This document shows positions 20,832-34,006 of a stretch of 34,538 nt of DNA, in pieces. The stretch comes from Nitrospinota bacterium. GTDB taxonomy: Bacteria; Nitrospinota_A; UBA7883; JACRGQ01. The stretch lies in NCBI GenBank assembly GCA_029881495.1, contig JAOUMJ010000031.1:1-34538 (forward strand). The letters run 5' to 3'. Made by a program: the position numbers and the translations under genes. Each line of letters opens with the position of its first letter. Position 1 is the first letter of the stretch. The notes beneath the pieces are model-generated. The model did no database searches. It saw nothing but the letters and a program-made list of their open reading frames with translations, and was not told the origin of the DNA.

Positions 20832-21350
20832 TTACAAGCCCCACTTGTGTTGAGCTGATAGAACAACCTCTATAAGTTCGCGCACCGCGCCGTTACCGCC
20901 AGGTTTTGAACAGACATAGCCGGCGGTGGCCTTCACCTTTTCGTCCGCGTCGCTCGGTGCCGCCGAAAAACCGCACGCCTCCATCGGAGGGAGGTCGTTG
21001 ATATCATCCCCTATAAATGAGGCCTCTTCTGCGGGGATACCGAGCTTTTTCAAAACCTCGTTGAATACCGCAAGCTTGTCTGAAACTCCCTGATGCACAT
21101 CCTTTATCCCGAGCTCGTTGGCCCGGTGCTCAACCACCCTGCTGAACCGACCTGAAATTATCGCCAGGTGGAACCCCTTTCGCCTTGCTATGGCGAGAGC
21201 CATTCCATCTCTCACATTGAAATTTTTCGATTCTACCCCCTCGTCGTTGACGATGATCCTGCCGTCGGTAAGGACCCCGTCGACATCAAGCACGAAGAGT
21301 TTTATCCCCTTCGCCTTTCGCGCAAGCTCTTCCGAGAGCGGGGGGCTCAA
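20832..21350 (-). CDS. kdsC: 3-deoxy-D-manno-octulosonate 8-phosphate phosphatase
   Basis: A 172-residue HAD-family phosphatase of the KdsC type. The nucleophile motif is DVDGVLTDG with D22 and D24; ISGRFSRVVEHRANELGI and FIGDDINDLPPM complete the active site. It removes phosphate from KDO 8-phosphate in the cytoplasm to give KDO for the lipopolysaccharide core. The start is a TTG at 21350 that overlaps the kdsD stop as TTGA, with GGGAG 4 bases upstream, so it is translationally coupled to kdsD. The length is normal for the family. Some relatives act on other 9-carbon sugar phosphates, but the kdsD pairing makes KDO the best choice. Confidence 0.94.
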   Translation of the reverse strand: MSPPLSEELARKAKGIKLFVLDVDGVLTDGRIIVNDEGVESKNFNVRDGMALAIARRKGFHLAIISGRFSRVVEHRANELGIKDVHQGVSDKLAVFNEVLKKLGIPAEEASFIGDDINDLPPMEACGFSAAPSDADEKVKATAGYVCSKPGGNGAVRELIEVVLSAQHKWGL

Positions 21351-22315
21351 ATTACTCCCGCCCTAAGCAGATCGTGGAGGTGGATCACACCCTGCATTTT
21401 TCCATCCTGTCCAACAGCGATTATTGACGTTATCTTGCAGTCTTCCATCATCTTCAACGCGGCGCCCCCCATCGCCTTTACATCGATGGTAACGGGATTT
21501 GGCGACATGACATCCTTGGCAAGTTTTCCGACCGGATTTGCCGCCCTCTCAAAGAGCCTGCGCAGATCGCCGTCCGTGATAACACCCTCAACGGCTCCGC
21601 TGTTGTTGACTACGACCGTCATCCCGAGTTTCTTGGCCGATATCTCGGTCAATACTGTGTTCAGCGATACATCCGAGTAGACAACGGGGATATGTTTCCC
21701 TGTCAACATAATATCCTCAACCTTGACCAGCATTCCTCTGCCGAGGCTTCCACCCGGATGATTACCCGCAAAATCCTCGCGCTTGAAACCTTTCTTCTCC
21801 ATCAGGACAATCGCCAGCGCGTCGCCAATCGCGAGAACGGCGGTAGTGGAAGCTGTCGGCACCATGTCCCACGGGCAAGCCTCCATCTTCACTCCGACAT
21901 TTATAAATACATCCGCTCTCTTTGCCAGCGTTGAATCAGCCCTGCCGCAAAGGGCAATGAATTTTATGCCGAACCGCTGGATTATAGGGAGAAGGCGCAC
22001 GATCTCCTCCGATTCGCCGGAATTTGAAATGGCAATTATGACGTCCCCCCTTGCTATCATTCCGAGGTCGCCGTGTATCGCTTCGGCGGGATGCAGAAAA
22101 AAGGAGGGTGTGCCGACCGACGAAAGGGTGGAGGATATTTTCTTGCCGATAATTCCCGACTTTCCCATACCTGTCACCACTATCCTGCCGTTGGAGGTGT
22201 GCATAAGTTCGATGGCTTTCTCGAAATTTTTATCAAGACCGGCTGATACTTGGGCTATCCCCATCTCCTCGATCTTCAGCACCTCTCTCGCCTTTTTAAG
22301 TATGTCTATATCCAT
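21347..22315 (-). CDS. kdsD: D-arabinose 5-phosphate isomerase (KdsD/KpsF)
   Basis: A 322-residue protein with an N-terminal SIS sugar-isomerase domain (VTGMGKSGIIGKKISSTL at about residues 47-64, then HPAEAIHGDLGMI and AISNSGESEEI) and a C-terminal CBS pair from about residue 205 (DIMLTGKHIPVV and DVMSPNPVTIDV). It converts ribulose 5-phosphate to arabinose 5-phosphate, the first committed step to KDO. It overlaps kdsC by 4 bases. The CBS pair may bind nucleotides or sugar nucleotides as a sensor. A 98-base spacer separates it from pilT upstream and contains only a 5-bp GC stem, not a convincing terminator. Confidence 0.94.
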   Translation of the reverse strand: MDIDILKKAREVLKIEEMGIAQVSAGLDKNFEKAIELMHTSNGRIVVTGMGKSGIIGKKISSTLSSVGTPSFFLHPAEAIHGDLGMIARGDVIIAISNSGESEEIVRLLPIIQRFGIKFIALCGRADSTLAKRADVFINVGVKMEACPWDMVPTASTTAVLAIGDALAIVLMEKKGFKREDFAGNHPGGSLGRGMLVKVEDIMLTGKHIPVVYSDVSLNTVLTEISAKKLGMTVVVNNSGAVEGVITDGDLRRLFERAANPVGKLAKDVMSPNPVTIDVKAMGGAALKMMEDCKITSIIAVGQDGKMQGVIHLHDLLRAGVI

Positions 22316-22413
22316 CTGGGTGATTCTACTTTATGAAAAAGGTTACGGCAATGGAGCCTGGAATAACCGGGAAGAAAACAACCCGGGTCGGTGATATCCG
22401 CGTTGGCGACAGC

Positions 22414-23490
22414 TCACGCAAAATCGTCCGGCGGTTCCTTCAGGAAATTCACAAATCTGTTTTTTTCTATCGATTTGTTAAACGCTTCTTCGGCGGATAT
22501 CCAACCCTTTTGCAGAAGTTCGAGAATGGCATCGTCGAGCGACTGCATACCGAACTTCTTCCCGGTCTGTATAACCGACGGGATTTGAAACGTCTTACCT
22601 TCGCGGATCATATTGGCCACCGCGGGTGTGACTACAAGAATCTCAAGCGCCGCGCAGCGCCCTTTTTTATCTATCCTCTTGAAAAGGTTCTGCGCAACAA
22701 CCCCTTTCAATGCCTCAGAGAGAGTCGTCCTTATCTGCCCCTGCTGGTTTGACGGAAAGACGTCGATTATCCTGTCAACCGTTTTACCTGCCGACTGGGT
22801 GTGCAGAGTACCGAACACAAGGTGGCCTGTCGCGGCGGCTTCAAGAGCGAGTTGGATCGTTTCCAAATCGCGCATTTCTCCAACCAGGATGATATCGGGA
22901 TCTTCGCGGAGCGCGCCTCTGAGAGCTGCGGCAAACGACTCGGTATGTTTCCCGACTTCACGATGATTCACAACACAGCCTTGCGCCTTGTGCACAAACT
23001 CGATCGGATCCTCAATGGTCAGGATATGATCCTTTCTCACCCTGTTGGCATAATCGACCATCGCGGCGAGCGTCGTCGATTTACCTGAGCCGGTTGGGCC
23101 GGTCACGAGGACCATCCCCTTGCCAAGCATCGCCATTTTTGAAAGTATCGGAGGCAACCCGAGGTCTTCCGCGCTAAGTATCTTGCTTGGTATTTCGCGG
23201 AAAACGGAACCAACGCCGTTTTTCTGCATGAAGTAATTCGCCCTGTACCTTGCCAAATTGGGGATCTCATAGCCGAAATCAAGATCGCCCGTCTCTTCGA
23301 ACACCTTTATTTTATCTTCGGGACATATCTCGTACAGCATCGCCTTTAATTCATCGTTATCCAGAGGCTTGTATTTCACTCTTTCCATCTCGCCGTTTAT
23401 GCGCAGAACCGGCTGGCTCCCCGCAACAAGGTGGAGGTCGGAAGCCCCCTGTTCATTCATAAGCTTGAAAAACGCGTCTATTTTCGCCAT
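22414..23490 (-). CDS. pilT: Type IV pilus twitching motility ATPase PilT
   Basis: A 358-residue hexameric retraction ATPase. It has an N-terminal PAS-like domain (GASDLHLVAGSQPVLRINGE), Walker A GPTGSGKST at residues 131-139, an Asp box and Walker B region (ALREDPDIILVGEMRDLETI), a His box (TGHLVFGTLHTQSA) and a C-terminal LIREGK-like motif (VANMIREGKTFQI). It powers pilus disassembly at the inner-membrane base of type IV pili. PilT and PilU are similar; the C-terminal motif and length fit PilT. The gene follows aroE by one base and so belongs to a rodZ-like/aroE/pilT transcript. No other pilus genes are in the window. Confidence 0.94.
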   Translation of the reverse strand: MAKIDAFFKLMNEQGASDLHLVAGSQPVLRINGEMERVKYKPLDNDELKAMLYEICPEDKIKVFEETGDLDFGYEIPNLARYRANYFMQKNGVGSVFREIPSKILSAEDLGLPPILSKMAMLGKGMVLVTGPTGSGKSTTLAAMVDYANRVRKDHILTIEDPIEFVHKAQGCVVNHREVGKHTESFAAALRGALREDPDIILVGEMRDLETIQLALEAAATGHLVFGTLHTQSAGKTVDRIIDVFPSNQQGQIRTTLSEALKGVVAQNLFKRIDKKGRCAALEILVVTPAVANMIREGKTFQIPSVIQTGKKFGMQSLDDAILELLQKGWISAEEAFNKSIEKNRFVNFLKEPPDDFA

Positions 23491-23491
23491 G

Positions 23492-24334
23492 TCATTTGCC
23501 CTTTTTGATAAATCCCCTCAACAGCGTTAATATCTTTTCCTCCGGGAACTTTTTGCCAGTCCATATGCGAAATGACTCGCTCCCCTGGTAAACAAGCATT
23601 CCGAGTCCATTAATCGTGCGGCACCCTCTGTCCCTGGCGATTTTTAAAAATCGTGTTTCAAAAGGTGAATAAATTATATCATAGACAAGTTGCCCTTTTT
23701 CGAAAGGGGTGTCCGCTATCGGAAGCGGATCATTTTTTTTCATCCCCATTGGAGTCGTTTGCACAACGAGATCGCTTGAGCCGATTATCTTCCCCGCATC
23801 CCCTCCGGAAGCGAGGGCGAACTCCGAGCCGCCAAAACCGGACAACTCCCTTGCCAGACGCGCCCCTCCAGGCTTGCTTCGGTTTATCACCGTGACATTC
23901 GACGCTCCCGCCTTGAGGAGTGAAACGCCAATCGCTCTCGCAGAGCCTCCAGCCCCAATAAGAGCAACCTTTCTTCCCTTTGGAGAAAAACCTTCAGACT
24001 TAAGCGAGCGTACAAAACCGATCCCGTCGGTGTTATACCCTGTCATTACCCCGTCATTGTTCAAAATCGTGTTAACCGCTCCTATCCCGGTAGCCTCCTC
24101 ATCGAGGGCGTCGATATATTTCATCACAGCTACCTTGTGAGGAACGGTGACGTTCAATCCTCTTAACCCGAGCATGCGGAACGCCTCCACGCTTTTTTTC
24201 AGATTTTCCGGCTTCACGTCAAACGCCGCGTAAACATAAGGAAGGGAGAGCATCTGCGCCGCAGCATTGTGCATCAACGGCGAAAGGGTGTGCGAAATGG
24301 GGTGACCTATGATCCCCAGGACGGCATTCTGCAT
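23492..24334 (-). CDS. aroE: Shikimate 5-dehydrogenase
   Basis: A 280-residue protein with the AroE plan. It has the shikimate-binding GHPISHTLSPLMHN at residues 10-23, the catalytic K67 in NVTVPHK, D103 in YNTDGIGF, the NADP-binding GAGGSARA at about 127-134, and the C-terminal NGLGMLVYQGSESF. It reduces 3-dehydroshikimate to shikimate with NADPH in aromatic amino acid synthesis. It starts 4 bases after the rodZ-like gene and ends 1 base before pilT, so the three genes are probably co-transcribed, although their tasks differ. All key residues are present and the length is standard. Confidence 0.95.
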   Translation of the reverse strand: MQNAVLGIIGHPISHTLSPLMHNAAAQMLSLPYVYAAFDVKPENLKKSVEAFRMLGLRGLNVTVPHKVAVMKYIDALDEEATGIGAVNTILNNDGVMTGYNTDGIGFVRSLKSEGFSPKGRKVALIGAGGSARAIGVSLLKAGASNVTVINRSKPGGARLARELSGFGGSEFALASGGDAGKIIGSSDLVVQTTPMGMKKNDPLPIADTPFEKGQLVYDIIYSPFETRFLKIARDRGCRTINGLGMLVYQGSESFRIWTGKKFPEEKILTLLRGFIKKGK

Positions 24335-24338
24335 TAAA

Positions 24339-25214
24339 TCAATCCGACAGAGGTATCTGCCAGTTCTTAATTACATTATTTTTCGGGACTTTGATGGAAA
24401 CCGGTTCTCCATTCAACTCAAGCCGGACGCTGGAAGCATTACCGGTGGTAAAAAGGAAACTCTTGTCCGCGTTGAGGACTATCTTCTGGCCCGGCCTCAC
24501 AAACATGTCACGTACATCTTCTTCATCAACGACGATAAGCACCCAGGCCTCCTCTTCGGTAACTGAAATTGCAAGACGATATTTCGAGGCGTCTACCCTT
24601 TTTCTCAATTCCGTTCTTTCTGAGATGCTTTCAGCAGGGACTGCTACCGCCGGAACGACGGCCTCCTTTTTCGGCTCCGGCGCTGGTTCAGGAGCTTTCT
24701 CCTTCTTTGTCTCTTTCTTCACCTCTTTTGCGGGCTCATCTTTTTCAGCCTTTACTTCTTTCTTTTCTTCTTTTTTTGGTTCTTCTTCCGTTACAGCCTT
24801 CTCTTCCGATTGCTTCCCGGCCTTTACAGGAGGCGCGACAGCCGCATTATCCTCTCCTGACATGTTTGAAAATATGACGAGCAACACCAGCAGTACCGCA
24901 CCGCCGACAACTGCCAGCCCTACGGGGAAAGGTTTCTGTTCATCCCCTATCTGCACAACCCTTGAGGCATCATGGCGGACCTCCACATTCAGCGATTCAT
25001 ATTCGGCCACGATCCTGTCCGCATCAAGGCCAAGGTGGTTAGCGTATGAACGAAGGAATCCGGTGATGAATACGGGAGCCTGATATTCGGAATAATCATT
25101 CTTCTCGAGCGCTTCAAGGAATTTGATATTTACCCGCGTGGCGGCGGATATTTCCTGTAATGAAACCCCTCGCGCCTCTCTTTCGCGCCTCAGCTTTTCC
25201 CCAAGACTACTCAA
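24339..25214 (-). CDS. RodZ-like membrane protein with cytoplasmic HTH
   Basis: A 291-residue protein. Residues 1-70 form a Cro/C1-type HTH of the RodZ kind (LREEREARG-like, ISAATRVNIKFLEALE, FLRSYANHLGLD). A membrane helix spans about 98-117 (VGLAVVGGAVLLVLLVIFSN). A long Lys/Glu/Pro-rich periplasmic linker follows at about 133-195. The C-terminal DUF4115-like domain, about 215-291, contains EEEAWVLIVVDEEDV and VRPGQKIVLNADK. In known RodZ proteins the HTH binds MreB and helps rod shape; here it may do so, but mreB is not in the window. Start: the TTG at 25214 has GAGGA 7 bases upstream, while no ATG lies near the HTH. Codon runs in the linker are repetitive and may vary between strains. Confidence 0.85.
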   Translation of the reverse strand: MSSLGEKLRREREARGVSLQEISAATRVNIKFLEALEKNDYSEYQAPVFITGFLRSYANHLGLDADRIVAEYESLNVEVRHDASRVVQIGDEQKPFPVGLAVVGGAVLLVLLVIFSNMSGEDNAAVAPPVKAGKQSEEKAVTEEEPKKEEKKEVKAEKDEPAKEVKKETKKEKAPEPAPEPKKEAVVPAVAVPAESISERTELRKRVDASKYRLAISVTEEEAWVLIVVDEEDVRDMFVRPGQKIVLNADKSFLFTTGNASSVRLELNGEPVSIKVPKNNVIKNWQIPLSD

Positions 25215-25358
25215 AGGTTATTCCTCTCAAAAAAATGCAAATACAGGTGACAGCTCCAGCACTATTAATCTAACGCCATATTCTACACAAAAACTCCTGT
25301 TTTATTCAGCAAATAAGCTTTTACTCAAATATTAAAAATTAATTATCGTCCACTTTTA

Positions 25359-26897
25359 ATGTATAAATACCTGATGGAAAAATGGATACCCTGGGCATTG
25401 GCTGCCGCATCCGGTGTATTGCTTGTAGTCTCATATCCGCCGTTTGGCGCAGGATATGTCGCATGGATCGCGCTGGTTCCGCTCATGATAGCTCTGCACG
25501 ACAAGCAGGGTATAGATTCCTTCTACATCGCGCTCGCCTGCGGGATAATCTATTTTACCGGTGTAATGCCGTGGATATATACGGTACTTACCACATACGG
25601 GCATATCTGGCCCCCTCTTGCGGTCATCCTTACCTTCATACTGATCCTCTATCTGGCGGTTTACACCGGGCTCTACGGCCTTATCCTCCCGGCATTCGGC
25701 AAAACAGCGGAGATGCTCTTTCTCTCCCCTTTCATTATCGTCCTCCTTGAATACGCAAGGGGGCACTTTCTGACAGGACTTCCATGGGCATTGATTGCCC
25801 ATACGCAGTCATATTATCCCTCCGTGATACAGATGGCCCTTTTTACCGGCACTGCGGGGGTTACCTTTCTGATAGTCCTCGTCAATTCATCCATTGCGTA
25901 CGCCTTTATAAGAACAAGAAGCGGAGGATTTCAGCCGAGATCGCTAGCGCCCGCGGCGGTGGCGATTACCTTGGCAATTATCAACACCGTATGGGGGCAG
26001 GCAAATATCAGACATGTGAAGAATCTCGACGGAAAGGAAATAAACGCGAGCATTATCCAGGGGAACATTGACCAGGACATGAAATGGGACAACAAATACA
26101 GGGATACCGTCATTGCCACCTATTTCACCCTGTCCAAATCCGAAGCGAAAAAAAAACCGGACCTCCTGGTCTGGCCGGAAGCATCCATCCCTTTTTTCTA
26201 CGGATATGACGCAATGCGAACGAACTTTCTAAACAAGCTTTCCGAATCGATAGATACTCCCATTCTTTTCGGAGGACTTGGAGTGGAGCATTCGGAAGAT
26301 ACGGGAAAGAATTACTACACAAACAGAGCTTATCTATTAAACAACGGCAAAGTCGTGGGCCACTATGACAAAATGCATCTCGTGCCGTTCGGGGAGTATG
26401 TCCCGCTGCGGAAACTCCTTTTTTTCGTGAACAAGATAACAAAGGCACTCAGTAGCGATACCACACCCGGCGATACCGCCAGCCCCCTTACTATCAACTC
26501 CATCCCCTTGGGGAGCCAGATATGCTACGAAATAATATTTGCGGAACCGACCCGCATGTTCGTACGGAACGGAGCAAGGCTGATAACGAACATTACAAAT
26601 GACGCATGGTTCGGAAAGTCTGGAGCATCGGCGCAACATATGGCGTCGCTCCCTTTCAGGGCGGTGGAAAACCGCATCGCGATAATCAGGTCGGCAAATA
26701 CCGGCATTTCGGGATTCGTCTCCGCAACTGGCGAGATCAGCAACACTACCGAACTCTTTAAAGTCGCCACTGCAAACGAGACACTGAAAGTTCCCGACAA
26801 ATCAGGCACATTCTATACCCGTTTCGGCGATGTCTTTACGCTGGCCTGCGCGCTTCTCCTTGCTACAGCGTATATCCGGGTACGCCGGAGGAACTAG
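25359..26897 (+). CDS. lnt: Apolipoprotein N-acyltransferase
   Basis: A 512-residue inner-membrane enzyme that adds the third acyl chain to bacterial lipoproteins. The N-terminal half has about seven membrane helices (for example ALAAASGVLLVVSYPPFGAG). The C-terminal nitrilase-like domain keeps the triad: E274 in VWPEASIP, K338 in YDKMHLVPFGEYVP and C389 in GSQICYEII, close to the family's standard positions (267, 335 and 387 in Escherichia coli). The start ATG is at 25359, with a second in-frame ATG at 25374. It is divergent from the rodZ-like gene across 144 AT-rich bases. The downstream reductase gene begins 1 base after its stop, so they are co-transcribed. Confidence 0.95.
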   Translation: MYKYLMEKWIPWALAAASGVLLVVSYPPFGAGYVAWIALVPLMIALHDKQGIDSFYIALACGIIYFTGVMPWIYTVLTTYGHIWPPLAVILTFILILYLAVYTGLYGLILPAFGKTAEMLFLSPFIIVLLEYARGHFLTGLPWALIAHTQSYYPSVIQMALFTGTAGVTFLIVLVNSSIAYAFIRTRSGGFQPRSLAPAAVAITLAIINTVWGQANIRHVKNLDGKEINASIIQGNIDQDMKWDNKYRDTVIATYFTLSKSEAKKKPDLLVWPEASIPFFYGYDAMRTNFLNKLSESIDTPILFGGLGVEHSEDTGKNYYTNRAYLLNNGKVVGHYDKMHLVPFGEYVPLRKLLFFVNKITKALSSDTTPGDTASPLTINSIPLGSQICYEIIFAEPTRMFVRNGARLITNITNDAWFGKSGASAQHMASLPFRAVENRIAIIRSANTGISGFVSATGEISNTTELFKVATANETLKVPDKSGTFYTRFGDVFTLACALLLATAYIRVRRRN

Positions 26898-28592: not shown

Positions 28593-29603
28593 CTATACTG
28601 GCACTATTTTAACAAACCCTGAAGCGTAACGCTCCTCATCTTCATCACATGCTTTGATCAGCATTTCCAGTTTTTCATTATACTTCCTGGAATCAATTAC
28701 GCCTTTAAAGGAAGCATAAAACGCTCTCGTTTCACGCGAGATCAATTTAATATCTTCTTCATTCATATCTGCAACCTTTACCCGGTTCCCAAGCTGCGAC
28801 TCCTTTACCTCGCCGCGAATATACGCCTTCCCCGCCGTCATGCCGGAACATACGTAGTACCCTATCGGAGAAGGGAGATTATACACGTTCAGAATTATTC
28901 CTATAGTCCCTTGCGCGTACTCCATGAAATAATCCTTCACCTTCCTGCCGAAGACGACAACAGGAGGGGAACGCCGTTCCAGCTCCTTGCTGAATCCTTC
29001 TATAAAGCTGTCCCATCCGCGCAACTCTATCTCCGCGTGACGTTTCTGGTATTTGAAGAGCATCGCTTCTACCCTTTCATTGTCCCCCATATCCCTTATG
29101 GCGTTATAGTCTATCTCTCTCCATATCTGGGGTATGCCCGCGCCTGCCCTGAGAACGCACCTGTTCCCACCTTGCCCTGCTACCCTGAAATTTCCGGAAG
29201 GAGCATACGACGCGAAGAGATCATCCACCGAGCCGCCGATATTCATCTCCACAGGGTTCGCCGATGTTCCAATAGCAACCTGCGCGTCACCGGGACACCA
29301 TACGGAGTTGCTGAAGCGTGTCGGGAAAGTATTTATTGTCAATCCGTCCACGAAGGCGCATGAATGGTTCCCCATAAGCCCGTACACCGATATTCTCGCA
29401 GGGCCGGCTATGCCGGTTCCGATAAGATCCTGACCGCAGACATTCACAAGGATGAAATGTTCAACGCCTGCTCCCCTCGCGATCTTCATCATGGCGTTCA
29501 GCTTTTTGCCGGCCATATCCATAACCCCGCAGTCGATCGTGATCTCCTTCAATCCATCGACGGCAGAGGCCACCGATTCAAGGGGGGTTCCCGCGTTCAG
29601 CAT
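28593..29603 (-). CDS. Split glutamate synthase, GXGXG (GltB C-terminal) subunit
   Basis: A 336-residue free-standing version of the C-terminal beta-helix domain of large-subunit glutamate synthase. It has a run of short strand turns including GNHSCAFVDGLTI, NRCVLRAGAGIP, QGTIGIILNVYN and SGMTAGKAYIRGEV. In fused enzymes this domain packs against the FMN barrel and forms part of the ammonia tunnel wall. The frame is open for 90 codons further upstream inside the FMN gene, but the ATG at 29603 has AGGAG 6 bases upstream. A TTG at 29630 that overlaps the FMN gene stop is a second choice. About 25 bases separate it from the FMN gene, so coupled translation is likely. It needs the other three subunits to act. 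Confidence 0.85.
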   Translation of the reverse strand: MLNAGTPLESVASAVDGLKEITIDCGVMDMAGKKLNAMMKIARGAGVEHFILVNVCGQDLIGTGIAGPARISVYGLMGNHSCAFVDGLTINTFPTRFSNSVWCPGDAQVAIGTSANPVEMNIGGSVDDLFASYAPSGNFRVAGQGGNRCVLRAGAGIPQIWREIDYNAIRDMGDNERVEAMLFKYQKRHAEIELRGWDSFIEGFSKELERRSPPVVVFGRKVKDYFMEYAQGTIGIILNVYNLPSPIGYYVCSGMTAGKAYIRGEVKESQLGNRVKVADMNEEDIKLISRETRAFYASFKGVIDSRKYNEKLEMLIKACDEDEERYASGFVKIVPV

Positions 29604-29626
29604 CAGCTTCTCCTGGGAGGTATCGC

Positions 29627-31207
29627 TCAAAATTTCCCCCTTCCAAAAAGGTCGTAAAGGAGCGGGTCGGTGCCGTGATACCTGAACTTGCGCGAACCGA
29701 CCGCCTCCTCGTGAGTCGTAAAGCCGAGTCCGGCCGCCAGCCCTTCCAATCCTCTCTGCCACGAACCCATCATCCTTACTATCATCTCCGAGCCCTCTTC
29801 CGGGTCTATCCTGTTTCCGTATCTCCTGGATGTGATCCCCCATGAACACTGTCCCGTATGGCACCTGAGGCACATGGTACAGCCAAGAGGAAAGAGGTGG
29901 CGCGATCCGGTCCCCACAAAATCAAATCCCACCATCAGCCCGAGCATCGCCGCCTTCGGAGATGTGAAGTTGCCTTCTCCGATGAGGGATATCTTTTCCC
30001 TCAGACCCTCGCGCCTGAGCGCGTCGTGGGCGACCTTTCCGAAATAGAGGATATCTAGCCCCTTGTTCTGCAGATCAGTTGTTCCAGCCGCGCCTGTGGT
30101 ACCTCCCCCGCCGCGGATAGTAATGTAATCAAATCCCGCCTGCGCAAGCGCGAGAATAATATGCTCCGCATTCCAAGCGGTGCCGTAAATATCCGCCCCT
30201 ACAAGCTTGTCCTCGCCAAGAACCGCGCGAAGCGATTCGACCCTCATTTTCAGCTCCTCAATGGAATACTGAAGATGCTGGGGGTTCGGCGAGTTCACGT
30301 CGCGATACGGTTCAATGCACCTTAGGAGCGCTATCTCGTAATCGTTTTTCGGCGCGGGGAGTTTTCCCCCTTTCCCCTTCTTTGCGTCCTGCCCATACTT
30401 CATGCTAATCCCCGCGAACTCCTTAAGATCAACCCACGGCCCGAAGCCTCCGGTTCCAAACTGGAGGATGGAGTGCTTGAACCCGGGGGCAAAATCCGGA
30501 TGCAGATACCCTTCCCCGGTGAAGAACGGCCTCTTCAGTTTTATGGAAGCGATAAGCCTTGCGAGCATCGCCTCGTGTGAATTCGAGCCGTAGCTCATAT
30601 GCGAATCGAGCACCGGTATCCCCACCTTCAGCCTCCGCTTTGGATGCTTGCCGAGATAGCAGTTTGTGAGCCGTCCGGCGAATTCATTTATGTTGTCGCG
30701 TGGAGGATTGAGAATTATGGAAGCGTCAATCAGGAAATTCTCCCATTCCAGAGGTCGCTGAAAATCCGACATTGAGCCGACCATGCTCTTGCCGTACGCT
30801 CTCCGCACGTTCTGGAGTATTTCGCGCGAACCGATGCTACCCGTGCCGATAACGGAATGGTTCGGATTCCTGTCGACGATGATCGCGTTGGTCGGGCACA
30901 TCGCCACGCACCTCTTGCAGTTGCAGCAGTCGATATCCATTATGTGAAGCTCTTTTTGAAGATGCCCGTCTATCACGGCGCTCGCACCGGTAAGCCTCCT
31001 GCCGCCGGAATCGACCGGGTATTCCCTCATCTCGAACACACACTCTTTCCTGTTCATATCGGTGAGCTTGTGCGTGCAACTGGTTACGCAAATGCCGCAC
31101 CATACGCACCTGTCGGGATCCACAGTCACGCGGTAGGGACCGCCTACCTCCCCTACCCCGCACTCATAAGGCGGGTCGTAAACAATCTTGTTGTTATAAA
31201 GTTTCAC
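29627..31207 (-). CDS. Split glutamate synthase FMN subunit with ferredoxin domain
   Basis: A 526-residue protein. An N-terminal ferredoxin-like domain has two clusters of cysteines: C34-C37-C40-C44, then C94-C97-C100-C104 followed by proline, fitting 2x[4Fe-4S]. The rest is the FMN barrel, with GEGYLHPDFAPGF, QFGTGGFGPW, GADIYGTAW, TIRGGGGTTGAAGTT and LGCTMCLRCHTGQCSWG, the last like the [3Fe-4S] loop of GltB. It should use reduced flavin to convert 2-oxoglutarate plus glutamine-derived ammonia to glutamate. The start is a GTG at 31207 with GGAG 6 bases upstream; it overlaps the glutaminase gene by 14 bases. The ferredoxin domain suggests low-potential electron entry, possibly in place of a fused small subunit. 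Confidence 0.88.
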   Translation of the reverse strand: MKLYNNKIVYDPPYECGVGEVGGPYRVTVDPDRCVWCGICVTSCTHKLTDMNRKECVFEMREYPVDSGGRRLTGASAVIDGHLQKELHIMDIDCCNCKRCVAMCPTNAIIVDRNPNHSVIGTGSIGSREILQNVRRAYGKSMVGSMSDFQRPLEWENFLIDASIILNPPRDNINEFAGRLTNCYLGKHPKRRLKVGIPVLDSHMSYGSNSHEAMLARLIASIKLKRPFFTGEGYLHPDFAPGFKHSILQFGTGGFGPWVDLKEFAGISMKYGQDAKKGKGGKLPAPKNDYEIALLRCIEPYRDVNSPNPQHLQYSIEELKMRVESLRAVLGEDKLVGADIYGTAWNAEHIILALAQAGFDYITIRGGGGTTGAAGTTDLQNKGLDILYFGKVAHDALRREGLREKISLIGEGNFTSPKAAMLGLMVGFDFVGTGSRHLFPLGCTMCLRCHTGQCSWGITSRRYGNRIDPEEGSEMIVRMMGSWQRGLEGLAAGLGFTTHEEAVGSRKFRYHGTDPLLYDLFGRGKF

Positions 31208-32396
31208 CGAAAACTCCGTTTAGCACGCCACTCTCGTTCAGTTCGAAAACTGTTATCTTGCCAGGCTCGCAATTGACCGACTTGTACTTCTTCCCTGTCA
31301 GGAATGCCGTTTGATAAATGCACTTCTCCTCGGACGACCATATGACGGTTTTTCCATCCTTGCTTCTCCCCATCCAGAGCTGGCGCAATCCGTCCCGGTC
31401 GCGTCCGCTTATCACCCGCGCCACGCCATCCTTCCTGATGATGGAAACGAAGGACGAAGGGCCGGACATCTTGAAACGCCCCAGCTCCGGATTGTTCCTG
31501 AAGATATCCTCGTATTCCCCGCGCTCCTTTTCGGAGAGTTTCTCCTCTTCCTGCGGATACATTCGGCACATTGCCCATTCGATCTGCTGGTAGCTCATGT
31601 TGCGCCCGCGAAGGAGATTGTCCACTTCAAGGAGTATCGCCTCCGAATCGGTGCCGACCATCTGTGTTACCCCCGCGGCCTCGATTCCCTGCCTGTTCGA
31701 GGGGGCGCTTGAAAGGTCGCCGTTATGGATTATGTGCGAATTTATAAAACTTATCGGATGGATTCCGTACCATACTCCCGTCTCCACAATGGAAGTGGGC
31801 CATCGCATGTGCGTCATCATTGCGGTTATTGGGCGCGAAGCGAACTTGGAGAGCGAGTACGCCTCAATGGTTGTTTTCAGGTCGTAGGCGGTGACAAACG
31901 TCCCTACGTTCTTGCCTGAACTGAATATCCGCGCCTTCCCTACATAAGTGGTATTGAACTTTTCGACTACCCGCCGCACATACGTATCGGGATCAACGGT
32001 CAGATACCGCCTCAGCATTTGATCCTTCGTCGGAAGATCCACGAAATACCTTCTCAGTTCCGGGAGACTGAACTTCCTGTACATGGACGCTTCGACCATC
32101 GCTTCCATTTCACCTATATGATGAAGGCCGAGTTTATGCTCGGTGAAGAGACTCTCAAGCTCCCTTGCGATGTCGCGATTGAAATACATTACATGAAGCG
32201 CGTAGAGTTCCTTGTACTCCGGGTATATCCCCTTGATGAATACGCCGGCGCCGCTGGTCCCCCTACCTTGCAGTTCCGAAGCGGCCCTGAGCGAAGCCAT
32301 GAGGTCGACCTCTCCAGCCGCCGCGTAAAGACCGCAACTCCCCGGCGCAAGATTCTGCGGATGAAAATCGAGCGGTCTTATCTCTCTGACGCTCAT
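31194..32396 (-). CDS. Split glutamate synthase glutaminase (Ntn amidotransferase) subunit
   Basis: A 400-residue class II amidotransferase-like protein. The likely nucleophile is C21 in PGSCGLYAAAGE. No start codon exists that would place a cysteine at residue 2, so a 20-residue propeptide must be removed to expose it. Other conserved parts are MTHMRWPTS, IIHNGDLSSAPSNRQ and MVGTDSEAILLE, typical of glutamine binding. It should release ammonia from glutamine for the FMN subunit. Its start ATG overlaps the flavin-subunit stop by 4 bases and its stop overlaps the FMN gene by 14. The length matches the free-standing form known from archaeal-type split glutamate synthases. Confidence 0.85.
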   Translation of the reverse strand: MSVREIRPLDFHPQNLAPGSCGLYAAAGEVDLMASLRAASELQGRGTSGAGVFIKGIYPEYKELYALHVMYFNRDIARELESLFTEHKLGLHHIGEMEAMVEASMYRKFSLPELRRYFVDLPTKDQMLRRYLTVDPDTYVRRVVEKFNTTYVGKARIFSSGKNVGTFVTAYDLKTTIEAYSLSKFASRPITAMMTHMRWPTSIVETGVWYGIHPISFINSHIIHNGDLSSAPSNRQGIEAAGVTQMVGTDSEAILLEVDNLLRGRNMSYQQIEWAMCRMYPQEEEKLSEKERGEYEDIFRNNPELGRFKMSGPSSFVSIIRKDGVARVISGRDRDGLRQLWMGRSKDGKTVIWSSEEKCIYQTAFLTGKKYKSVNCEPGKITVFELNESGVLNGVFGETL

Positions 32397-34006
32397 GTCT
32401 CCTGCTCCATCGTAAAACCTCCGGTCGGTTTCGGAATGATATCCTTCGGGAGTTCATTCGGCGTTACCACCTGCCTCGGACAAAACTCCCAGCACCTGGC
32501 GCAGCCGTTGCAATCCTCGGTATGCTCAAAGAAAACTTCACCAGGTTTCCATTTGATATTTTTTTTGTCTATCGCCCCTTCCCTGCATGATCGGAAACAC
32601 CAGTCGCATGTGGAATCAAGACCGCCGACGCATGTTCCGCAGACGAAACAGCGCCCCGCCTCAACCGCCGCCTCGGCCAGGGTTGCTCTTTCGGCAAGGA
32701 TCCCGAACCCTTTTTTTCTCTCGACGGCGGGAATAACTTTTTTCCTTAGGCGCATCCTCTTCTCGAAATAGTTCCTGATATTGAGCTTGCCAAACGGCAC
32801 CTCCGCGGCTCTTTCACCAAACAGCACATTACCTGTCAATCTTTTTTCGATATCCGCGGCGGCCTTTCTCCCGGAGGCGATTGCGTGAATCACCGTACCT
32901 TTGGAGGTGGCGACAACATCGCCGGCAAAAAAGATGTTGCTCTTGCCGTCAGACGGTTTTTCCCACTCTTCCGAACTCTGCCCGATAGCGAGAAATACCT
33001 CGTCGGCCTTTATTTCAACCGTTTCACCTGCAAGAGGTTCCAGCCCCCCTCTTTCGGAAGGGTCGGTTTTCACTACTCTGTTTTTCAAAAAGGTTACCGA
33101 TCCGTTCTTGAAAGAGACCGGCGAAAGGAGAAATTGAAATTTCACTCCCTCATCAACCGCGTCGTAATATTCGTTTTTATGCGCGGGCATCTCGGAAAGC
33201 GAACGGCGATATGCCACATTAACTTCGCTTGCGCCCAGGCGGATCGCTGTCCGGCAGACATCCATCGCCGCGTTCCCCCCTCCGATGACAAGCACCGATT
33301 TCCCTTCCAGGTTCTCCCTCGTGCCTGTATCCATGCTCTTGAGGAACTCAAGGCCGCTTCTGGTTTTATCCCCCAGTTCCAGATTTACAGGAATATGCGC
33401 TCCTGTGGAGATGAGAACGGCGTCATATTTAGTTGATAGCTCGCTGATCTTTTTCCGATCTGCCTTTACCCCTGTTTTCAGCTTCACGCCAAGGCTCAGC
33501 ACGAAATTTATCTCCCTGTCGAGGACATCCCGCTCAAGCCGGTATTCCGGGATTCCGTAACGCATCATCCCGCCGGCCTTTTCGGAGCTTTCAAGCAGTT
33601 CCACACTGTGTCCGAAACGGGCGAGGAAATATGCGGCAGTCAGCCCGGCGGGACCGGCGCCGACGATTGCCACTTTTTTTCCGCTGCTTTTTTTTATCTC
33701 CGGCTTCCACCCCTGGTTGAATCCATCATCCCCTATGACCATTTCCAGATGCTGGATCGAAATGGGAGAATCGAACTTGCCGCGGTTGCACGGGGCTTCG
33801 CAAAATCCGTAACAGACCCTACCGAGAACACCCCTGAAGGGGTGGCTGTCCATCATTATCTCCCATGCAAGATTCTTCCACCCTCTGCTTAGGGCATACA
33901 TCGCGCCGGCAATATCAGTCTCCGCGGGACATCCATCCTTCCCTCCGCATGGAGCTATCTTGTCTTTCCATACCGGGAGAAGAAATTGCTGTTTCATCTT
34001 ACTCAT
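32393..34006 (-). CDS. GltD-like NAD(P)H/FAD subunit with C-terminal Fe-S domain
   Basis: A 537-residue protein. The N-terminal GltD domain has cysteines at 20, 26, 65, 69 and 73 (PCGGKDGCPAE and VCYGFCEAPC) for Fe-S clusters. FAD binding is shown by VAIVGAGPAGLTAAYFLA, the second nucleotide site by VLVIGGGNAAMDVCRTA, and FAGDV completes it. A C-terminal extension carries CFVCGTC, CDWCFRSC and CNGCARCWEFCP, at least one extra ferredoxin-like domain not usual in bacterial GltD. It should pass electrons between NAD(P)H, flavin and Fe-S clusters to the FMN subunit. The start ATG at 34006 has GGGG 7 bases upstream; a TTG at 34036 is less likely. A 57-codon frame overlaps its start. Confidence 0.88.
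   Translation of the reverse strand: MSKMKQQFLLPVWKDKIAPCGGKDGCPAETDIAGAMYALSRGWKNLAWEIMMDSHPFRGVLGRVCYGFCEAPCNRGKFDSPISIQHLEMVIGDDGFNQGWKPEIKKSSGKKVAIVGAGPAGLTAAYFLARFGHSVELLESSEKAGGMMRYGIPEYRLERDVLDREINFVLSLGVKLKTGVKADRKKISELSTKYDAVLISTGAHIPVNLELGDKTRSGLEFLKSMDTGTRENLEGKSVLVIGGGNAAMDVCRTAIRLGASEVNVAYRRSLSEMPAHKNEYYDAVDEGVKFQFLLSPVSFKNGSVTFLKNRVVKTDPSERGGLEPLAGETVEIKADEVFLAIGQSSEEWEKPSDGKSNIFFAGDVVATSKGTVIHAIASGRKAAADIEKRLTGNVLFGERAAEVPFGKLNIRNYFEKRMRLRKKVIPAVERKKGFGILAERATLAEAAVEAGRCFVCGTCVGGLDSTCDWCFRSCREGAIDKKNIKWKPGEVFFEHTEDCNGCARCWEFCPRQVVTPNELPKDIIPKPTGGFTMEQET

Follow-up and report, generated by a model that had tools for sequence, protein, structure and literature searches.

Glutamate synthase (GOGAT) is the gateway of ammonium into biomass. 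In the bacterial scheme, as laid out in PMC8097209, glutamine is hydrolyzed, the ammonia passes to an FMN site and adds to a 2-oxo acid, and the imine is reduced by FMN, which draws its electrons from NAD(P)H via FAD and Fe-S clusters. Splitting of the genes is ordinary, and archaea and clostridia have split enzymes too. The split cluster of Monoglobus pectinilyticus encodes separate glutaminase, ferredoxin plus FMN, and GXGXG proteins and a FAD oxidoreductase, in the order glutaminase, FMN, a separate 4Fe-4S protein, FAD protein, GXGXG. Here, we analyzed a four-gene operon on the minus strand at positions 28593-34006 of a 34,538-nucleotide stretch of DNA from a Nitrospinota bacterium (contig JAOUMJ010000031.1; the whole stretch is called the window). 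Based on sequence comparison, we somewhat favor reading the operon as a divergent NAD(P)H-fed, four-subunit glutamate synthase, which would represent a branch that diverges deeply within the split (archaeal-type) enzymes. No description of this branch was recognized among the papers that literature searches listed, and glutamate is not mentioned in the available parts of PMC3035293, PMC3236037, PMC3072091, and PMC6896113. With its ammonia source and wiring retained but otherwise constant synthase residues rewritten, such a branch would be a natural test of the residues behind flavin chemistry and the choice of acceptor. It is relevant, too, to nitrogen assimilation in some members of the nitrite-oxidizer phylum and of the Deferribacteres.

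Operon layout and subunit homology

The four open reading frames lie on the same strand and form an overlapping operon:

32393..34006, minus strand: GltD-like FAD/NAD(P)H flavoprotein of 537 aa, encoded by the first gene (PF14691, PF07992)
31194..32396, minus strand: class II glutaminase subunit, 400 aa, with a short propeptide (profile matches to PurF and to split-GOGAT glutaminases)
29627..31207, minus strand: ferredoxin (2x[4Fe-4S]) plus FMN synthase protein, 526 aa (PF01645, 1.2e-55; GltB structures)
28593..29630, minus strand: GXGXG (beta-helix) subunit, 345 aa (hhalign about 99% to split-GOGAT GXGXG subunits)

Transcribed 5' to 3', the GltD-like flavoprotein is followed by the glutaminase, the FMN protein, and the GXGXG protein, with overlaps of 4 nt (32393-32396), 14 nt (31194-31207), and 4 nt (29627-29630), respectively. 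The GXGXG reading frame is open up to 29873, and its start is likely the TTG at 29630. Related genomes have all four genes in this order as well, and each subunit is homologous to the corresponding GOGAT piece by Pfam, PDB profile, and hhalign comparison. The central domain of GltB was not found in a Pfam search of the four operon proteins. The pieces of the large subunit, therefore, follow the N-to-C order of GltB, minus the central domain. An initial annotation of this DNA was right in proposing a split, archaeal-type glutamate-synthase-like enzyme with additional Fe-S clusters; its statement that the gene order departs from GltB was wrong, since glutaminase, FMN, GXGXG is the GltB order. 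At eight of nine Deferribacteres loci, a single protein of ~900 aa combines FMN and GXGXG; a contig end truncates the ninth locus.

Pfam gave no match for either the glutaminase or the GXGXG frame (PF01493 included for GXGXG). Their hhalign profiles join the glutaminase and GXGXG subunits of split enzymes at about 99% each, against comparison sets of five rows (one from Monoglobus and four from a second Deferribacteres system described below). The glutaminase profile also matched PurF structures in the PDB (best E 0.00017); a PDB search with the single glutaminase sequence found nothing, and one with the GXGXG profile found nothing meaningful. Cys21, Arg198, Asn225-Gly226, and Asp250 of the glutaminase are invariant in 16/16 rows of the glutaminase alignment, from which G020 (contig edge) was excluded. 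The first of these is the predicted nucleophile:

32334..32336, minus strand: predicted catalytic Cys21, which would be N-terminal once the propeptide is removed (invariant; aligned with the CG of PurF)

The GXGXG subunit carries an extra ~45-65-aa stretch that hhalign leaves unaligned to other GXGXG subunits (15-row alignment; G237, at a contig edge, excluded). AlphaFold2 models made from 7-row alignments had a mean pLDDT of 56.0 for GXGXG and 42.7 for the glutaminase and are too poor to confirm the folds.

The Monoglobus cluster has the same set of separate proteins, and its subunit sizes (373, 501, and 240 aa) leave no room for a central domain, as in the operon. Its gene order differs, its FMN protein is only 30.7% identical to that of the operon, and the rewritten synthase motifs and the GXGXG-protein insertion are found on the operon's side. 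The fused NADPH-GltS of the same genome as the operon (gltBD) shares the domain order, the redox scheme, and the [3Fe-4S] cysteines. Compared to gltBD, the operon is unfused, lacks the central domain, has a ferredoxin domain on the FMN protein, and differs in the strand lysine and the loop-4 motif.

N-methylglutamate synthase is a repurposed relative of glutamate synthase, and we take this to be the function (MgsABC) of the Glx cluster. GlxBCD, the rhizobial cluster around 'protein GlxC', resembles the operon in its split glutaminase, GXGXG, and FMN proteins. The Glx FMN protein was assigned as GlxD by position, and a Streptomyces homologue was added; it has no cluster cysteines and keeps K339, D365, and AKPG, unlike the operon. 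The operon rows sit on a separate branch with the cysteines present, which places them outside the N-methylglutamate synthases (Glx/Mgs).

A second split, glutamate-synthase-like system in Deferribacteres consists of a glutaminase, a ferredoxin-FMN protein, and a ~780-aa GXGXG-GltD fusion (L097 4302-9383, L098, L099, L100). It has the ferredoxin domain on the FMN protein and a GltD-like N-terminus without the same two cysteines, like the operon. It differs in the fusion of GXGXG to GltD and in keeping the strand lysine and Asp365. This second split system led us to drop the view that Deferribacteres have no glutamate synthase besides the operon.

The synthase site and the operon clade

The FMN protein scored 189.6 bits with PF01645 against a cut-off of 20.4 (E 1.2e-55) and matched the GltB structures 7mfm, 2vdc, and 1ea0. 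Its features, compared between 16 operon rows and 30 other rows unless stated, are as follows:

30896..31108, minus strand: N-terminal ferredoxin cysteines 34, 37, 40, 44 / 94, 95, 97, 100, 104 (invariant, 8/8 rows)
30344..30388, minus strand: rewritten loop-4 motif DAKKGKGGKLPAPKN, residues 274-288 (D274, K277, K279, and N288 in 16/16 operon rows, 0/30 others)
30191..30193, minus strand: Asp339 replacing the strand lysine (D in 16/16 operon rows, K in 30/30 others)
30113..30115, minus strand: Arg365 replacing Asp/Ser (R in 8 and K in 8 of the clade; D in 28/30 and S in 2/30 others)
29846..29881, minus strand: cluster ligands C443, C446, C449, and C454, a [3Fe-4S] motif plus one Cys (16/16)

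Loop 4 holds residues 274-317 and presumably links the synthase and glutaminase sites. The AKPG found there in the comparison rows is AKKGKG in 16/16 operon rows. At the clade-only positions the 30 others have G in 30 (D274), P in 30 (K277), I/E/D/G (K279), and V/I (N288); further clade-only states (16/16 vs 0/30) are G254 (R/H in others), E411, and an inserted Y/F at 341. The full signature of AKPG, strand Lys, and Asp/Ser365 was present in 30/30 GltB, archaeal-type, Glx, and other comparison rows and in 0/16 operon rows. In FMN barrels, we take the strand lysine to lie next to the flavin N1-O2. The changes at residues 339 and 365 look like an exchange of charges. All 16 operon rows retain the YSIE glutamate, which we assume to be the loop-4 residue coupling the two sites, as well as the phosphate-side TGA, G278, G280-G281, and cysteines 443, 449, and 454. 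Cys446 is also retained in 16/16 and is present in 21/22 archaeal-type rows.

A decaying or non-catalytic paralogue might likewise lose synthase residues that are constant elsewhere while GltB stays intact in the same genome. This explanation is very improbable, as the frames contain no stops, the cluster and glutaminase residues are kept, and the FMN protein, 69-80% identical in seven class relatives, carries these replacements in every one of them. On the sequence evidence, the branch is a real, conserved, deeply divergent variant with a remodeled synthase site.

A synthase-domain tree was built from 46 rows. The 16 operon rows came from Nitrospinota and Deferribacteres (8/23 operon-bearing Deferribacteres used; L041 from G133 excluded), and the 30 comparison rows comprised 22 archaeal-type and 8 other rows (fused GltB, the second Deferribacteres type, and GlxD). 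The operon rows all lie on one side of a 100/100 branch with 5.36 changes per column. Other long branches in the same tree lead to Glx (4.75), the second Deferribacteres type (4.53), and GltB (2.82), so deep placement is unsafe. The initial annotation noticed neither the departure of the synthase site from the 30 other rows nor the position of the enzyme in a clade apart from ordinary archaeal-type GOGAT. An ordinary archaeal-type split GOGAT, unusual only in its splitting, would account for domain content and a split so close to those of the Monoglobus enzyme. We consider it unlikely given the 100/100 branch between the operon clade and the 30 other rows and given that the glutaminase and GXGXG proteins match none of the Pfam models matched by the Monoglobus subunits. 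The second Deferribacteres system served as a control: its glutaminase matches none of these models either, but its GXGXG part does.

Another possible explanation, which we hold more tentatively than a divergent glutamate synthase, is a glutamine-dependent FMN reductive aminase whose acceptor is not 2-oxoglutarate; the ammonia donor and redox chain would be the same and the synthase pocket different, with the repurposed N-methylglutamate synthase as a parallel case. Loop 4 and two barrel strands are rewritten alike in two phyla (16/16 vs 0/30), and the operon stem is longer than the branch leading to Glx (5.36 vs 4.75), both of which would fit such an enzyme. The paired charge swap at 339/365 could, however, be neutral compensation.

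Distribution and relation to fused GltB

The operon was present in 8/24 genomes examined of the phylum Nitrospinota and in 23/47 of the class Deferribacteres. No strong match outside these two groups was found in three partly overlapping samples of 192, 385, and 384 genomes, for which a strong match was defined as E <= 1e-100, 300 bits, and E <= 1e-80, respectively. Because the Deferribacteres form lacks both of the peptide patterns with which 84,980 species genomes were scanned, that scan does not bound the range.

In the window genome (G000, 2.82 Mb), gltB is also present as an intact fused gene; its 1512-aa product scores 1691.6 with the equivalog (cut-off 1047), and gltD adjoins it, so the operon is a second system there. 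The operon FMN protein scored 78.6 bits with the fused GltB equivalog NF008730, below the cut-off of 1047. According to the initial annotation, a complete fused gltBD elsewhere, together with loss of catalytic residues in the operon, would argue for another function. The intact fused gltB and gltD do exist, and the glutaminase residues of the operon are kept, but several otherwise constant synthase residues are replaced.

Among Nitrospinota draft genomes, with PF01645 matches classed as GltB by judgment, GltB was found in 3/8 genomes with the operon and 15/16 without it (Fisher p=0.007, uncorrected for kinship). At >=90% completeness, the counts were 3/6 and 9/9 (p=0.044). The gene is cut by a contig end in 3/18 GltB-bearing genomes (G003, G022, and G023), and only that of G023 was compared with GltB. 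The contrast between operon and GltB is seen within family f2 (G011 vs G018). In family f4, G017 and G020 have only the operon, G013 has both, and G014, G015, G016, and G022 have only GltB. In G006, which carries the operon, neither GltB nor a full glutamate dehydrogenase was matched. This genome has two further PF01645 pieces, one with a Rieske domain and one that stops directly after the synthase domain. A PF01645 search of G011, rated 100% complete, found no other glutamate synthase above a weak partial match. In Deferribacteres, a GltB-sized match occurred in 0/23 operon genomes and 11/24 others. Judged from these patterns, the operon seems to replace fused GltB in several relatives, which would favor 2-oxoglutarate as the acceptor. 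A glutamate synthase is further supported by the homology of every subunit to its GOGAT counterpart, by the GltB order, and by the retained glutaminase residues, YSIE glutamate, TGA, and cluster cysteines.

Several observations weigh against a glutamate synthase. GltB is intact in the window genome, and GltB-sized frames stand beside the operon in G012 and G013. By length and score, a second PF01645 protein of ~550 aa is found in 20/23 operon-bearing Deferribacteres (its split-GOGAT context was read in 3/20), which gives these genomes another candidate besides the operon. A full glutamate dehydrogenase match is present in four of the five Nitrospinota genomes that carry the operon and lack GltB. 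The co-occurrence statistics ignore phylogeny and rest on draft genomes. Finally, K339D, P277K, G274D, and Asp/Ser365 to Arg/Lys occur in 16/16 operon rows at positions that are constant or nearly so in the 30 others, GlxD included.

The coexistence with GltB in the window genome and with the second protein in Deferribacteres would also suit a reductive aminase. The presence pattern relative to GltB, on the other hand, suggests equivalence, and the neighboring genes inspected name no substrate. In a more specific and slightly more doubtful form of this explanation, the operon would encode a new glutamine-dependent FMN reductive aminase, known from this analysis in Nitrospinota and Deferribacteres only, with a non-2-oxoglutarate acceptor and with the flavin-side lysine and its acidic neighbor exchanged in charge. 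A Crp-type regulator and a COX1-like DUF1858 protein upstream in three relatives would then hint at a redox- or NO-linked nitrogen function.

Electron input and genomic surroundings

If the operon encodes a glutamate synthase, NAD(P)H would reduce FAD on the GltD-like subunit of a complex whose formation, electron path, donor, and product we infer. Electrons would then pass through [4Fe-4S] clusters, including those of the ferredoxin domain on the FMN protein, and a [3Fe-4S]-type site to FMN. Removal of the propeptide would free the cysteine nucleophile of the glutaminase, which would release ammonia from glutamine. The ammonia would travel to the FMN site and add to a 2-oxo acid, for which 2-oxoglutarate is the likeliest choice; reduction of the resulting imine would give the amino acid.

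The GltD-like protein has Fer4_20 and Pyr_redox_2 matches above the Pfam cut-offs, and its best NCBIfam match is PRK12771 (431.9 bits, below its cut-off of 516). Its N-terminus keeps 5/7 cysteines of the genome's canonical GltD in 15/15 operon rows (G020, at a contig edge, excluded), a pattern shared with two rows of the second Deferribacteres system. The C-terminus holds a further region:

32480..32650, minus strand: Fe-S region at the C-terminus of the GltD-like protein, with Cys 453-509 (Fer4_21/Fer4_9 below cut-off)

Six of the ten cysteines in this tail are present in 15/15 operon rows, and the other four in 7 or 8 of 15. The Fe-S tail claimed for the flavin subunit is present as a region with matches that all fall below cut-off. 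The long electron chain proposed earlier is borne out only partly, as the N-terminus retains just 5/7 of the canonical cysteines. The first-cluster motif of the ferredoxin domain occurs in 20/21 archaeal-type rows shown, the remaining row being cut short. Since ordinary split enzymes carry the ferredoxin cysteines too, the extra clusters give no special support to a mixed ferredoxin/NAD(P)H input, which is possible. Sequence alone does not settle the donor among NADH, NADPH, and ferredoxin.

A membrane protein lies upstream of the operon in G011, G017, and G012 (L036 3297-5076, L038 3062-4931, and L040 6415-8193); Pfam runs on the G011 and G012 copies showed two DUF1858 domains and, below cut-off, COX1. 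A divergent Crp-type regulator also precedes the operon in these genomes (Pfam on the G011 copy). The spacer between the regulator and the COX1-like gene contains a TATGA-N6-TCATA palindrome in 3/3, and shuffled sequence matched the CRP pattern equally well in 4-7% of 100 shuffles each. Nothing convincing was found for sigma-54, FNR, CRP, and NNR boxes upstream of the operon in the window.

The window also contains genes that, by eye, look like kdsC, kdsD, pilT, aroE, rodZ, and lnt at 20832-26897 (only three checked by Pfam). The same neighborhood recurs in G006 (L034 8888-14940), which speaks against contamination. A protein of about 534 aa in G013 (L124 2197-3798) has a Rieske domain N-terminal to a Glu_synthase FMN domain; the G006 copy (L116 2-1093) is cut by a contig end. 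Lastly, a ~460-aa protein is found near the operon in G013 (L037 5940-7313), G020 (L039 3260-4696), and G021 (L035 2096-3469). It has GAF and GGDEF matches in G013 and G021 and a Rossmann match in G013; for G020, the assignment uses only the N-terminal sequence.

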